In this document: positions 40,527 to 45,384 of the stretch, in pieces
Layout: the number at the start of each line of letters is the position of its first letter
Position numbering within the stretch: the stretch's first letter is position 1
Assembly (NCBI RefSeq): GCF_024734665.1
Contig: NZ_CP102931.1
Coordinates: 2,788,001 to 2,852,000, forward strand
Direction of reading: 5' to 3'
Length of the DNA stretch: 64,000 bases
DNA from: Variovorax paradoxus
Lineage (GTDB): Bacteria > Pseudomonadota > Gammaproteobacteria > Burkholderiales > Burkholderiaceae_C
Position numbers and translations under genes: made by a program
Notes under the pieces: generated by a model
Seen by the model: the letters and a program-made list of their open reading frames with translations, nothing else
Told to the model about the DNA's origin: nothing
The model's database searches: none

Positions 40527-40617
40527 TGGAGTGGTTGATTGGAGGGCCGTATGGTAGTGAACCTGTGGCGCTTCGAGCCAGCCTTTTGCGGCGCATATGC
40601 ATCCAACCCGGAGTTCT

Positions 40618-40647
40618 TTGGCAGAGTCTGGTGTCGGCCCGTACACT
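40618..40647 (+). promoter_or_regulatory. Predicted promoter of the amino-acid transporter operon
   Basis: A -35 box TTGGCA (40618-40623) and a -10 box TACACT (40642-40647) are 18 bases apart, ending 32 bases before the aapJ-like ATG, which has its own GAGGAG ribosome site. The boxes are near consensus; no operator is obvious. Confidence 0.45.
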
Positions 40648-40679
40648 GCCTTTTGCCTACTCTTGAGGAGAACACACCA

Positions 40680-41714
40680 ATGAACAATCGATTCCGCCCG
40701 GCACTGCTCGTGGCCGCTTCCGTCATCGCCTTGGCCGCGGCCGCACCGGCCTTCGCCGGCAAGACGCTCGACGCGGTCAAGCAACGCGGCACCGTCAAGT
40801 GCGGCGTGACCAACGGCGTGGCGGGCTTTTCCGCGCCAGACACACAGGGCAACTGGTCGGGCCTCGACGTCGACACCTGCCGCGCCATTGCGGCGGCCGT
40901 GCTCGGCGACGGCAAGAAGGTCGACTTCGTGCCGCTCAACTCGCAGCAGCGCTTCTCGGCCCTGCAGGCCGGCGAAATCGACATCCTCGCGCGCAACACC
41001 ACCTGGACGCTCACGCGCGACGCCTCGCTGGGCTTCAACTTCACCACCATCACCTACTACGACGGCCAGGGCTTCCTGGTGCCGAAAAAGCTCAAGGTGA
41101 CAAGCGCCAAGCAGCTCAAGAACGCGACCATCTGCACGCAGTCGGGCACCACCAACGAGAAGAACGTCTCCGACTACTTCCGTGCCCAGAACATCCCGGT
41201 GAAGACGGTCGTCTTCGAGAGCTTCGAAGCTTCGTTCAAGGCCTTCTTCTCGGGCCGCTGCCAGGCCTTCACGACCGACGCCTCGGCGCTGGCCGGCCTG
41301 CGCAACAAGGAAGCGCCGAACCCCGACGACTACATCATCCTGCCCGAGCTGATCTCCAAGGAGCCTCTCGCGCCCCTGGTGCGTCGTGGCGACGACGAGT
41401 GGTTCGCCATTGCCAAGTGGGTGCCCAACGCGCTCATCGAGGCCGAGGAATTCGGCGTGACGCAGGCCAATGCCGATGAGCTCAAGGCCAGCAGCAAGGA
41501 CCCGGGGCAGCAGCGCCTGGTCGGCACCGGCGAAGACCTCGGCAAGCTGCTGGGCCTCGACAAGGACTGGTCGTTCCGCGCAATCAAGGCTGTGGGTAAC
41601 TACGGCGAGATGTTCGAGCGCAACGTTGGACCGAAGTCGGTGCTGAAGCTGCCGCGTGGCTCCAACAACCTCTGGAGCAAGGGCGGTCTGATCTACGCAC
41701 CCCCGGTTCGATGA
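40680..41714 (+). CDS. aapJ: General L-amino acid ABC transporter, periplasmic binding protein (AapJ/BztA type)
   Basis: A 344-residue periplasmic protein with signal peptide ending at APAFA. The mature protein opens GKTLDAVKQRGTVKCGVTNG and continues GNWSGLDVDTCRAIAAAVLG and ILARNTTWTLTRDASLGFNF, the hallmark stretches of AapJ/BztA, broad L-amino-acid binders with long (about 340-residue) mature chains. The start ATG at 40680 follows TTGAGGAG. The two permease genes follow with ATGA overlaps. Confidence 0.93.
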   Translation: MNNRFRPALLVAASVIALAAAAPAFAGKTLDAVKQRGTVKCGVTNGVAGFSAPDTQGNWSGLDVDTCRAIAAAVLGDGKKVDFVPLNSQQRFSALQAGEIDILARNTTWTLTRDASLGFNFTTITYYDGQGFLVPKKLKVTSAKQLKNATICTQSGTTNEKNVSDYFRAQNIPVKTVVFESFEASFKAFFSGRCQAFTTDASALAGLRNKEAPNPDDYIILPELISKEPLAPLVRRGDDEWFAIAKWVPNALIEAEEFGVTQANADELKASSKDPGQQRLVGTGEDLGKLLGLDKDWSFRAIKAVGNYGEMFERNVGPKSVLKLPRGSNNLWSKGGLIYAPPVR

Positions 41715-42700
41715 ACGGCGGGGCCTCGCGCCGCGGGGTCTGGCTGGCGTGGGCCGTCCAGGCACTGCTGGTGCTGGCCGTGGTGGCCGGCGCGGTCTGG
41801 GTGGTTCACCATGCGCTCGAGGTGCTTCGCGCGCGCGGAGTTCGCTCGGGCTTCGACTTTCTCACCGAGCCCGCGGGCTTTTCCATCAGCGAGGGCTGGC
41901 TCGACTTCGATGCCAGCCAGCCGTTCTGGCGCGCCTTTCTCGCGGGCCTGATCAACACGGTGCGCGCGGCCGTGCCAGCGGCGATCTTCTCGGTCGTGCT
42001 CGGCACGCTGATCGGCATAGGACGGCTCGCGCCGCACGTGCTGCTGCGCGGCATCTGCACCGCGTACGTCGAACTGCTGCGCAACGTGCCGCTGCTGGTG
42101 CAATTGCTGATGCTGGCCTTTGCCATGGCCAACCTGCTGCCCGACCCGACCGAGCCGCTGCGGCTGCTGCCGGGCGTGTGGCTGAGCAAGGGCGGGCTCA
42201 GCGTGCCGTGGCCCATGGTGGGCGAGGGCGGTCTGCATTTCGAGTTTCCCGAGCGTGGTGATTTTGGCGTGAGCGGTGGCGCTGCGCTGAGCCCCGAGTA
42301 CGTGACCATCGTCGCGGGCCTGAGCTTCTATTCGGCCGCCTTCGTGGCTGAGATCGTGCGCGCGGGCATCCTGTCGGTGTCGCAGGGGCAGGTGCTGGCG
42401 GGGCAGGCACTGGGGCTGTCGCCGGTGCAGCAACTGCGCATCGTCGTGCTGCCGCAGGCGCTGCGGGTGATCGTGCCTTCGCTCACCAACCAGCTGTTGA
42501 GCCTCACCAAGAATTCGTCGCTGGCGGTGGCTGTGGGCTATCCGGAGCTGGTGTCGGTGGCCAACACCACCATCGGCTCCAACGGCCGCGCCTTCGAGTG
42601 CATCGCGATCATCATGGCGGTCTACCTGCTGCTGTCGCTGCTGATCTCCTTCGGCATGAACCGCTACAACGCGCGCGTTGCATTGCGAGGCTGGCGATGA
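41711..42700 (+). CDS. aapQ: General L-amino acid ABC transporter permease (AapQ type)
   Basis: A 329-residue inner-membrane permease of the His/Glu/Gln family. A first helix (LAWAVQALLVLAVVAGAVWV), a periplasmic loop with FDFLTEPAGFSISEG, and permease core FLAGLINTVRAAVPAAIFSV. The insertion between core helices (about 140-190) is typical of AapQ. The coupling loop GQALGLSPVQQLRIVVLPQA is present. ATG overlaps the binding-protein stop, and the stop overlaps the next permease start. Confidence 0.92.
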   Translation: MNGGASRRGVWLAWAVQALLVLAVVAGAVWVVHHALEVLRARGVRSGFDFLTEPAGFSISEGWLDFDASQPFWRAFLAGLINTVRAAVPAAIFSVVLGTLIGIGRLAPHVLLRGICTAYVELLRNVPLLVQLLMLAFAMANLLPDPTEPLRLLPGVWLSKGGLSVPWPMVGEGGLHFEFPERGDFGVSGGAALSPEYVTIVAGLSFYSAAFVAEIVRAGILSVSQGQVLAGQALGLSPVQQLRIVVLPQALRVIVPSLTNQLLSLTKNSSLAVAVGYPELVSVANTTIGSNGRAFECIAIIMAVYLLLSLLISFGMNRYNARVALRGWR

Positions 42701-43752
42701 GGAACGTTGCACAAGGCCCCATTGCATGGCGCAGTGAACTCTGGGGTTCGCCGCTGCGCTCGCTGGCCACGGTGATGTTGCTGGCCCTGCTGGCATGGGG
42801 CGGCTTCCACGTCGTCGAATGGGGCATCGTGCATGCGGTGTTCCGGGCTGACGCCGAGGCTTGCCGCGCGGTGCAGCATGGCGCGTGCTGGGGCGTGGTG
42901 GCCGAGAAATGGCGGCCGATGCTTTTCGGGCGCTTTCCATATGAAGAGCAGTGGCGTCCGGCCATCGCGGTGGTCGTGCTGTCTGCTGTCACGATGCTCA
43001 GCGCCTGGCCGCGCAGCTGGCGCTGGTGGCTGGTGCCGCTGTGGGCTGCTGCATTGCTGCTGTTCGTGCTGTTGATGCGCGGTGGCGTGCTCGGCCTGGC
43101 CCAGGTGCCGACGAGCCGCTGGGGCGGCCTGCCGCTGACCATCGGGCTGGCGGTGGTGGGGCTGGCGCTGGCCTTTCCGCTGGCCTTGCTGCTGGCGCTG
43201 GGGCGCCGCTCGGGCTGGCCCGTGGTGCGCACGCTGAGCGCGAGCTATATCGAGCTGGTGCGCGGCGTGCCGCTGATCTCGGTGCTGTTCATGGCCTCGT
43301 TCCTGCTGCCGCTGCTGTGGCCGGCCGGATGGCAGCCTGACGTGCTGGTGCGCGTGCTCGCGGGCCTCGTGCTGTTCGTAGCTGCCTATCTGGCGGAAAT
43401 CATCCGCGGTGGCCTGCAGGCCGTGCCGCGCGAGCAGACCGAAGTGGCCATGGCGCTGGGCTTCGGCCGCTGGCCGGTGCAGCGCGACATCGTGCTGCCG
43501 CAGGCGCTGCGCCTCGTCGTGCCCGCGCTCACCAACAGCGTGGTCGGCACGCTGAAAGACACCTCGCTCGTCACCGTGGTCGGCCTGTTCGAGCTGACCG
43601 GCGCGCTCGGGCTGGCGCTCGGCGGCGACCCGACATGGCGGCCGTTCTACCTCGAGGGCTATCTCTTCATCGCCGTGGTGTACTGGGTGCTGTGCTTCGG
43701 GCTCTCTCGCTACAGCGTGTGGCTCGAAAAGCGGCTGTCGGCCGCTCCCTGA
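42697..43752 (+). CDS. aapM: General L-amino acid ABC transporter permease (AapM type)
   Basis: A 351-residue inner-membrane permease, partner of AapQ. The N-terminal third has the AapM-type GACWGVVAEKWRPMLFGRFP followed by EEQWRPAIAVVVLS; the core holds RWGGLPLTIGLAVVGLALAF and the coupling loop AMALGFGRWPVQRDIVLPQA. ATGA overlap with aapQ sets the start at 42697. The ATPase gene (aapP) that usually follows is not here; the next gene is a leader peptide and homoserine dehydrogenase, so the ATPase must be encoded elsewhere. Confidence 0.92.
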   Translation: MRNVAQGPIAWRSELWGSPLRSLATVMLLALLAWGGFHVVEWGIVHAVFRADAEACRAVQHGACWGVVAEKWRPMLFGRFPYEEQWRPAIAVVVLSAVTMLSAWPRSWRWWLVPLWAAALLLFVLLMRGGVLGLAQVPTSRWGGLPLTIGLAVVGLALAFPLALLLALGRRSGWPVVRTLSASYIELVRGVPLISVLFMASFLLPLLWPAGWQPDVLVRVLAGLVLFVAAYLAEIIRGGLQAVPREQTEVAMALGFGRWPVQRDIVLPQALRLVVPALTNSVVGTLKDTSLVTVVGLFELTGALGLALGGDPTWRPFYLEGYLFIAVVYWVLCFGLSRYSVWLEKRLSAAP

Positions 43753-43790
43753 GCCAAGCGCCGCCGGGCTCCTGTACACTCCGGGCCTTC

Positions 43791-43916
43791 ATGTCGAGCC
43801 ACAACTCCCACCCCGCATCCAACGCAGCCCTGATGGCTCGCATGATGCCGCCTGCCTCCGCGCAGGCGATGGTTGTTGCTCGAATGATTACCACCATTAC
43901 CACCGCGGTCACCTGA
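43791..43916 (+). CDS. Candidate Thr/Ile attenuator leader peptide for homoserine dehydrogenase
   Basis: A 41-codon open frame ending in MITTITTAVT: five Thr (all ACC) and two Ile (ATT) codons in the last ten, with one Val. This closely mirrors the E. coli thr leader, which uses Thr and Ile codons to sense the end products. It is followed by competing hairpins and an intrinsic terminator, then the homoserine dehydrogenase gene. Translation could also begin at inner ATGs (43833, 43842, 43845, 43869 or 43884); none has a strong ribosome site. If transcription starts from the TACACT box at 43775-43780, the ATG at 43791 would be almost leaderless. Confidence 0.6.
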   Translation: MSSHNSHPASNAALMARMMPPASAQAMVVARMITTITTAVT

Positions 43917-43922
43917 CACGCG

Positions 43923-43948
43923 CAGGTGGCCGTTCCGGCAGCCACCTG
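43923..43948 (+). promoter_or_regulatory. Alternative hairpin of the attenuator
   Basis: CAGGTGGC (43923-43930) pairs perfectly with GCCACCTG (43941-43948) around a ten-base loop. The first arm can instead pair with CACCTG at 43910-43915, which overlaps the stop codon of the leader peptide (43914-43916). These are mutually exclusive stems, as needed for ribosome-position sensing. The link from here to the terminator arm (the antiterminator) could not be resolved by eye. Confidence 0.55.
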
Positions 43949-43975
43949 GTGTATCGCTCTCTCCCCGAACGAATG

Positions 43976-44007
43976 AACCCAGCTCTGGCAGCTGGGTTTT
44001 GTTTTTT
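43976..44007 (+). terminator. Intrinsic terminator (attenuator) before homoserine dehydrogenase
   Basis: A nine-base stem AACCCAGCT (43976-43984) / AGCTGGGTT (43990-43998) with loop CTGGC, followed directly by TTGTTTTTT. It is a strong Rho-independent terminator placed after the leader peptide and only 15 bases before the start codon of the next gene, on the same strand. That position makes sense only as an attenuator, or as a terminator of the transporter operon 220 bases upstream. Confidence 0.8.
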
Positions 44008-44022
44008 CGTCTGGAGATGTCC

Positions 44023-45384
44023 ATGTACCGCGATCCCGTTGAATCCTTCGAGCCCTTGCACAGCCGCCCCGCGGCCATTCGTACCCTGCGCGTGGGGATG
44101 ATTGGCATCGGCACCGTGGGCTCGGGCACCTTCCGCGTGCTGGCGCGCAACCGGGCCGACATCGCGGCGCGTGCCGGCCGTTCGATCGAGCTCGTGATCG
44201 TCGCGGCGCGCAACCTGGCGCGGGCCGCCGGCATCGTGGGAGAGGGCGTTCCGCTCACGGCCGACGCAATGCATGTGGCCACGCACCCCGATGTCGACGT
44301 GGTGGTGGAAGTGGCAGGCGGCACAGGCCCGGCGCGCGACTGGGTGCTGGCCGCCATCGCGCACGGCAAGCACGTGGTGACGGCCAACAAGGCCCTGTTG
44401 GCAGTGCACGGCACCGAGATCTTCGCCGCCGCGCGGGAGAAAGGCGTGGTCGTCGCCTACGAGGGGGCAGTGGCCGTGAGCATCCCCATCATCAAGGCGC
44501 TGCGTGAAGGCCTTGCGGCCAACCGCATCGAGTGGGTGGCCGGCATCATCAATGGCACCACCAACTTCATCCTGAGCAAGATGCGCGACGAGGGCCTCGA
44601 CTTCGCCGCCGCGCTCGCGCAAGCACAGGCGCTGGGCTATGCGGAAGCCGACCCGACTTTCGACATCGAAGGCATCGACGCCGCCCACAAGCTGACCCTG
44701 CTCGCCGCCAACGCTTTCGGCATGCCGCTGCGCTTTGCCGATGCGCAGGTGGAGGGCATCACCGCCCTGCAGGGTGTGGACGTGGCGTGTGCCGAACAGC
44801 TCGGCTACCGCATCAAGCTGCTGGGCGTGGCGCGGCGGCAAGCATCTGGCGTTGAACTTCGCGTGCAGCCTGCGCTAGTACCCGAAGACCACCTGATGGC
44901 GCATGTGAAGGGCTCGATGAACGCCGTCATGGTCAAGAGCGACGCGGCTGGCCTCACGATGTACTACGGCGCGGGCGCCGGCTCGGAGCAAACGGCTTCG
45001 GCCGTGATCGCCGACCTCGTGGACGTGGCGCGGCTCGACGGCGTCGACGCCGCGCAGCATGTGCCGCACCTGGGCGTTCACGCGCATGCGACGAATGCAT
45101 TGGCGGTGCTGCCGCGCGCGGCCGTCGACACCTCACACTACCTGCGCGTGCCGGTGCATGCGGTCGGCCAGATCCAGGCGGTCACGGCCTGTCTCGCAGC
45201 GCAGAAGGTGCCCGTGCGGCAAGTCGCGCTGGCGGCCGAGTGCACCGGCGCGGGACCGCAGGTGCTGGTGCTGGCCGGGCCGGTGGTGCAGGGCGCGCTC
45301 GACCTCGCCGTGCATGCACTTCAGGCGCGGCCCGAAGTAGCCGGCCCGGTGGTCACGCTGCGCGTGGAAGCGTTGGAAGGCTGA
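44023..45384 (+). CDS. hom: Homoserine dehydrogenase
   Basis: A 453-residue enzyme that reduces aspartate semialdehyde to homoserine on the way to threonine, isoleucine and methionine. NAD(P)-binding loop GMIGIGTVGSGTF, then VVTANKALLAVHG, the catalytic-domain stretch AGIINGTTNFILSKM, and GYAEADPTFDIEGIDAAHKL with substrate-binding Asp/Glu/Lys. The C-terminal 100 residues form an ACT-like regulatory domain. ATG at 44023 is preferred over 44017 because CTGGAG then lies at the right spacing. No threonine synthase gene follows, so this may be a second, separately controlled copy. The preceding attenuator suggests control by Thr/Ile supply. Confidence 0.93.
   Translation: MYRDPVESFEPLHSRPAAIRTLRVGMIGIGTVGSGTFRVLARNRADIAARAGRSIELVIVAARNLARAAGIVGEGVPLTADAMHVATHPDVDVVVEVAGGTGPARDWVLAAIAHGKHVVTANKALLAVHGTEIFAAAREKGVVVAYEGAVAVSIPIIKALREGLAANRIEWVAGIINGTTNFILSKMRDEGLDFAAALAQAQALGYAEADPTFDIEGIDAAHKLTLLAANAFGMPLRFADAQVEGITALQGVDVACAEQLGYRIKLLGVARRQASGVELRVQPALVPEDHLMAHVKGSMNAVMVKSDAAGLTMYYGAGAGSEQTASAVIADLVDVARLDGVDAAQHVPHLGVHAHATNALAVLPRAAVDTSHYLRVPVHAVGQIQAVTACLAAQKVPVRQVALAAECTGAGPQVLVLAGPVVQGALDLAVHALQARPEVAGPVVTLRVEALEG

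Follow-up and report, generated by a model that had tools for sequence, protein, structure and literature searches.

The region 43791-44022 of the window, by which we mean the whole stretch of 64,000 nucleotides of Variovorax paradoxus DNA that was analysed, most likely carries a ribosome-mediated attenuator of the homoserine dehydrogenase gene hom2, which would switch on the position of the ribosome on a short leader frame; we give this reading a probability of roughly 0.83. The leader, found in Variovorax-related soil bacteria, looks like a conserved relative, as yet without a name, of the classic attenuators of amino-acid genes in E. coli, and the comparative sequence evidence argues that it belongs to a real, conserved and well-bounded betaproteobacterial attenuator family. 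The aligned sequences show directly the frame and its codons, the helices, the extent to which these are conserved and covary, and the association with hom2. Amino-acid attenuators are best known from gammaproteobacteria, whereas the family described here is betaproteobacterial, and its leader ties three end products to one branch-point enzyme. The original prediction of a Thr/Ile attenuator in front of hom was silent on three points, namely that this hom is a paralogue, that the leader probably has a leaderless start, and that a helix lies over the Shine-Dalgarno site of the gene. The features are as follows.

43775..43780, + strand: -10-like hexamer TACACT, probable promoter, 10 nt 5' of the leader ATG
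43791..43916, + strand: leader peptide frame, 41 codons and TGA, with an in-frame ATG after the box in 22/22 genus rows
43884..43913, + strand: control stretch ATG ATT ACC ACC ATT ACC ACC GCG GTC ACC (MITTITTAVT), recognised by codon conservation in genus and family rows
43906..43915, + strand: segment 1, partner of segment 2 (10 pairs, 95.1% of cells paired, 46 rows)
43923..43932, + strand: segment 2, partner of segment 1, or of segment 3 via 43923-43930
43935..43949, + strand: segment 3 (CCGGCAGCCACCTGG), partner of segment 2 via 43941-43948, or of the whole terminator hairpin
43960..43973, + strand: 5' arm of a helix enclosing the terminator, interrupted in the window (minimum-energy fold; family tests)
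43976..43998, + strand: intrinsic terminator stem-loop, segments 4 and 5 (fold, terminator scan, family pairing)
43997..44007, + strand: terminator T run (window sequence)
44006..44017, + strand: 3' arm of the sequestering helix, with the Shine-Dalgarno GGAG at 44013-44016 (fold; family tests)
44023..45384, + strand: hom2, homoserine dehydrogenase paralogue, 453 aa (Pfam, predicted structure)

Distribution and leader frame

A DNA search of 61 genomes found the element in the genome of the window and in 22 of 36 same-genus relatives, and in none of the 24 genomes from other families of the order. The covariance model R1, built from 22 of the 23 genus rows with L023 left out, recovered, with scores of at least 61.8 bits, 46 of the 399 family genomes; two further matches, at 24 and 23 bits, were discarded. 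A second model, R2, built from those 46 rows, scored the same 46 genomes at no less than 94 bits, with no other match above 31.4 bits. The positive genomes span 17 of 141 genera and stand above a wide gap in score; family matches at or below 31.4 bits were not counted, and L072 and L073, which were inspected, lack the element. When 300 genomes from the order were searched with R2 under strict filters, only the genome of the window exceeded 30 bits, and 58 others matching at 18.6-29.5 bits were taken, by score only, as chance. A pattern scan of named genomes yielded 49 stretches, mostly from Variovorax and Acidovorax, with others from Paracidovorax, Simplicispira, Diaphorobacter, Alicycliphilus, Oryzisolibacter, Curvibacter and a few loosely named metagenome assemblies.

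The leader frame of the window translates to MSSHNSHPASNAALMARMMPPASAQAMVVARMITTITTAVT, followed by TGA; its length is 33-45 aa in the genus rows (n=22) and 31-49 aa in those family rows for which a start was called (n=41). Over the 46 family rows, the core of the leader is composed of Thr (46%), Ile (24%) and Met (21%; n=317), its limits being set by the alignment and its last three residues being excluded from the count. Together these three residues make up 91% of the core, compared with 12.5% of the leader upstream of it (Thr 6%, Ile 1%, Met 5%; n=1157, 41 rows). Thr and Ile occur in the core in 17/17 genera, so that the conservation in relatives on which the original prediction had staked its Thr and Ile codons is borne out; Met occurs in 16/17 and is nearly as frequent as Ile, so a leader of Thr and Ile codons only is too narrow a description. 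Thr, Ile and Met are the three amino acids made from homoserine. The frame is rich in codons for the end products of the pathway, the leader feature that marks the attenuator class, and by codon conservation the putative control codons are those for Thr, Ile and Met. Met itself may be sensed by the leader, with the caveats that ATG is also a possible internal start and that the Met and Ile codons lie one base apart. Val, offered earlier as a further sensed amino acid, is rejected, the core ending in AVT or AVA in just 2/46 family rows. The core of L040 (identical to L023) reads MITTMTAAAP.

Across the 22 genus rows hardly any change is seen in the codons, the stop, the switch segments or the terminator, whereas the 5' part of the leader is conserved in frame and not in residues: differences there fall on the three codon positions in the ratio 819/531/564, and a plain test of coding constraint on this part was negative, with no conservation at the protein level. 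Near-invariance of much of the RNA within a genus would also be expected of a metabolite-binding riboswitch or a protein-bound leader free of ribosome control. We consider this very unlikely, since the conserved bases fall within codons or within segments that have two alternative partners, every one of the 22 genus rows has an open leader frame, and neither the window nor any of 12 loci tested has an Rfam match at gathering score.

The TACACT box is present in 22/22 genus rows, and TACACT, TATACT or TATGCT stands 6-10 nt 5' of an in-frame ATG in 41/46 family rows. Because of this spacing, transcription would begin at or just 5' of the ATG, and the RNA 5' end probably lies at or close to the first codon of the leader frame, making the frame leaderless or nearly so, with a start site placed only by the 6-10 nt distance to the conserved -10-like box. 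A simple sigma-70 scan found no two-box promoter in the window. Further 5', positions 40539-43752 of the + strand encode the binding protein of a polar amino-acid ABC transporter and two permease-like genes.

Overlapping helices up to the hom2 start

The segment 43791-44022 folds with a z of -5.0 (0/200 shuffles as low), and a terminator scan gave 2 sites against a mean of 0.3 in shuffles. Two pairings compete over the stop codon: GGTCACCTG (43907-43915) with CAGGTGGCC (43923-43931), or CAGGTGGC (43923-43930) with GCCACCTG (43941-43948), which are mutually exclusive because both use 43923-43930. Between leader and gene lies an intrinsic terminator whose stem, AACCCAGCT/AGCTGGGTT, has 9 pairs and whose T run, TTTTGTTTTTT, contains one G and ends at 44007, 15 bases 5' of the hom ATG (44023). 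We thus see everything that the original prediction reported here: a leader ending in MITTITTAVT, exclusive helices over its stop codon and a nine-pair stem with a T run that ends 15 bases before hom. Pairing of the loop of helix 2:3 with the stretch 5' of the terminator, as a pseudoknot, was considered by eye and set aside.

In all, four helices overlap: 1:2, 2:3, 3:(4-5) and the terminator. For helix 2:3 and the terminator, 94.8% of 763 cells are paired over the 46 rows, in an alignment fitted to these two helices. Helix 1:2 is backed more by conservation (95.1% paired) than by covariation and is weaker than 3:(4-5) in shuffle tests. A permease gene on the same strand ends at 43752, just 5' of the leader, as it would if the hairpins did no more than terminate transcription of the amino-acid ABC transporter genes upstream, with the small frame a product of chance. 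This reading is highly improbable: the permease end is common to about 8/22 genus rows (by eye) whereas the leader is in all 22, leader and hom2 co-occur, and both the codon content and the switching helices would be left unexplained.

The original prediction could not resolve an antiterminator arm by eye, and a candidate is now located at 43935-43949, which can pair with the entire terminator hairpin, loop included, and covaries with it. This helix, 3:(4-5), was first seen in partition-function folds of five rows with the leader partly masked, and was tested on the alignment of 46 rows, which was fitted to 2:3 and the terminator and not to 3:(4-5). In it 91.4% of 628 cells are paired, and 14 cells in 3/14 pairs have changed on both sides; for paired cells, double-change cells and covariation score, 0/500 shuffles were as high, whereas the remaining two of five measures lie within the range of the shuffles (114 and 145 of 500). 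Versions of the helix slid along the alignment pair in 15-45% of cells. Of the 14 pairs of this helix, one fails to form in 23 rows and another in 16. When segment 3 was combined with partners from other genera, its own pairing exceeded the mean foreign one in 42/46 rows, 28% of foreign partners on average being as good as the own one. The terminator loop covaries with segment 3, as GTCA:TGAC in L045, GTCG:CGAC in L066 and L071, and TGCCT:AGGCA in L048. Such matching loop changes in several genera, judged from the alignment, are not what a terminator alone would explain. Segment 3 paired with the terminator hairpin is the candidate antiterminator, a pairing that excludes the terminator.

The helix over the Shine-Dalgarno site varies in sequence between genera while its pairing is kept. 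At least 7 contiguous pairs are found in 29/46 rows, compared with 12.8% of shuffles; the window lies outside those 29, its helix being interrupted with a longest contiguous run of 5 pairs. In the same swap test the own pairing exceeds the mean foreign one in 41/46 rows, with 25% of foreign partners on average as good. Formation of the antiterminator should free the Shine-Dalgarno site, since the loop of 3:(4-5) contains the upstream arm of this helix. This longer-than-chance and genome-matched helix is also what one would expect if the switch were mainly translational, with the leader ribosome controlling the Shine-Dalgarno helix and termination secondary or absent, as is the fact that L054, L056 and L063 (3/46 rows, two genera) have fewer than 5 T in the 9 nt tested and keep the hairpin without a T run. 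We regard a mainly translational switch as unlikely for the family, since a T-rich tract is kept in 43/46 rows (a loose count, L058 being borderline) and the window has a textbook terminator, yet an interrupted Shine-Dalgarno helix of its own. The three rows without a T run suggest a translational version of the attenuator, and they offer a natural test of a change from a transcriptional to a translational switch. At the Shine-Dalgarno site of L063 the helix has 11 pairs, and at that of L056 just 3 contiguous ones.

Ribosome position and comparison with known attenuators

For an attenuator that switches on the leader ribosome, we infer the start point, ribosome positions, polarity and effect on expression as follows. 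The ribosome would start on the leader near the RNA 5' end and read the Met/Ile/Thr stretch. With plentiful charged Thr-tRNA, and probably Ile- and Met-tRNA too, it would near the stop codon and cover segment 1, so that segments 2 and 3 would pair, the terminator would form and RNA polymerase would stop; in any RNA that escaped, the hom2 Shine-Dalgarno site would be closed in its helix. A stall at the first Thr codons would instead leave segment 1 free to pair with segment 2, releasing segment 3 to pair with the whole terminator hairpin and destroy the terminator. The antiterminator would, by its topology, also open the Shine-Dalgarno site, and hom2 would be made.

Ribosome positions were modelled as equilibrium folds, whereas real folding follows transcription. 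With the core RNA only, meaning that RNA upstream of the ribosome is ignored, a stall at codon 3 lets the antiterminator beat the terminator in 35/46 rows (0.95 versus 0.04 in the window), while at codons 6, 7 and 9 the antiterminator wins in 6, 3 and 3 of 46. When the edge assumed for the ribosome is varied from 6 to 12 nt, this crossover moves by about two codons and persists. With a ribosome at the stop codon the outcome is mixed, the antiterminator being ahead in 18/46 rows, and in 33/46 if the edge is set 4 nt further; the latter result counts against the proposed switch if ribosomes dwell at the stop codon. With the full 5' RNA, the antiterminator is favoured in 18/41 rows at codon 3, 22/41 at codon 4, 4-7/41 at codons 6-10, 12/41 at the stop codon and 16/41 when no ribosome is present. 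For the window, codon 4 alone then favours the antiterminator (0.59 versus 0.40); codon 3 gives 0.36 versus 0.63, codons 1-2 just 0.10, and the stop codon 0.48 versus 0.50. A stall at codons 5-7, which are also Ile/Thr codons, is predicted to cause termination in most rows at the standard edge. The folds therefore predict read-through on a stall at the first Thr codons and termination further on, a difference that is modest with the full 5' RNA, and they indicate that such a switch is possible, not that it works in this way. The natural variation of the family suits tests of co-evolution between codons, ribosome position and overlapping helices.

The thr design combines Thr/Ile leader codons, a terminator and a downstream gene with homoserine dehydrogenase activity, and all three are shared by the hom2 leader and the thr operon attenuator (thrL; RF00506). 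The likeness to the E. coli design invoked in the original prediction holds for the Thr/Ile leader peptide and fails for the structure: RF00506 is absent among the 7 Rfam matches up to E 5 in 43600-44200, and the chain of helices is of the his type. The hom2 leader further departs from thrL in the Met codons of its control stretch, its probable leaderless start and its Shine-Dalgarno helix, and it precedes a monofunctional hom2 instead of thrABC. In the his attenuator of Salmonella and E. coli, segments BC+DE stand for read-through and CD+EF for termination, and the alternating chain is alike here, 1:2 with 3:(4-5) corresponding to BC+DE and 2:3 with 4:5 to CD+EF. By this analogy the helix parity is that of his without its first segment, and not that of trp or thr. 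We noticed no counterpart of the first (A) segment in the hom2 leader, and because of this an untranslated leader need not fall into deep termination. It also differs from his in its amino acids and in a segment 3 that pairs with both terminator arms and the loop.

A 2004 survey of proteobacterial attenuators, reportedly by Vitreschak and co-workers, could list some of these leaders. The hom2 leader family was not found in the available text of the literature searched, including PMC3766115, PMC2965389, PMC8632094, PMC6429828, PMC1262725, PMC1183508 and PMC7298713. The sections of PMC1183508 consulted mention eight ACC codons in the thr leader and an extra hairpin between leader and terminator in his, and a survey proposes, in the part available, that the attenuator motifs held in Rfam may have originated in gammaproteobacteria, with very few transfers (PMC3766115). 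As described in the portion of PMC7298713 consulted, Sinorhizobium meliloti trpL likewise places its leader frame right at the RNA 5' end; it encodes 14 aa in front of the Trp operon of an alphaproteobacterium, and its start was measured whereas ours is inferred. Actinobacterial leader-peptide elements and translational T-boxes resemble the hom2 leader in serving amino-acid genes and in hairpins that hide the Shine-Dalgarno site, and are set apart, by their description in the excerpt available (PMC1262725), by other genes and lineages. The hom2 element appears to combine both outputs, termination and hiding of the Shine-Dalgarno site.

The gene behind the leader

The genome of the window contains two genes with a Pfam homoserine dehydrogenase match, whose products are 57.5% identical. 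In front of the other one, hom1, an upstream frame ends 14 nt before the start, and for this reason there is no room for such a leader. The leader and hom2 (at least 71% identity to the protein of the window) occur in the same 39 of 61 genus genomes, that of the window included, although in G084 the hom2 match is just a 92-residue piece beside the leader. By tblastn, hom2 lies beside the leader in 43/46 family rows. Of 19 genomes tested across the 17 genera, 18 encode two homoserine dehydrogenases; G338 is the exception with one, and there the copy behind the leader no longer has the catalytic part. When 37 leader-bearing and 19 other proteins were placed in a tree, one branch with a support of 100/100 separated the leader-bearing group from the other.

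The Pfam ACT signature was detected in 19/19 Hom1 and in 0/37 Hom2 proteins scanned, and the mean pairwise identity within Hom2 is 0.34 in the C-terminal part compared with 0.68 in the catalytic part, the Hom1 values being 0.83 and 0.89, respectively. The predicted structure of Hom2 from the window (mean pLDDT 89.6) matches the solved homoserine dehydrogenase 3mtj over 433 columns, nearly its full length, and has a C-terminal beta-alpha-beta-beta-alpha-beta unit of ACT-like topology. An initial view that the ACT domain had been lost was corrected on this basis: in the model, Hom2 seems to keep the ACT-like fold though the signature is gone. One may hypothesise that Thr feedback on Hom2 is weakened. 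We tentatively propose, as a broader picture that we hold to be possible though not probable, that a leaderless Thr/Ile/Met attenuator specific to the hom paralogue governs termination and Shine-Dalgarno access by one switch, that some genera dropped the terminator tract and kept the translational half, and that control over the branch point for these three amino acids moved from the regulatory domain of the enzyme to the RNA.

A few rows depart from this gene order. In L057, L061 and L062, all of genus g97, leader and terminator are kept with no Hom2 behind them by tblastn; what remains is a short frame, 114 residues long in one and 119 in the other of the two rows tested, which by eye is similar to the ends of Hom2 and has no Pfam match above cut-off. 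L096, from Oryzisolibacter propanilivorax, contains the same stretch as L057, and L055, the fourth g97 genome, has a full hom2. In L064 the match to Hom2 starts at residue 106 and the frame after the leader is 187 aa long; the gene may be broken, or the assembly wrong, at this point.
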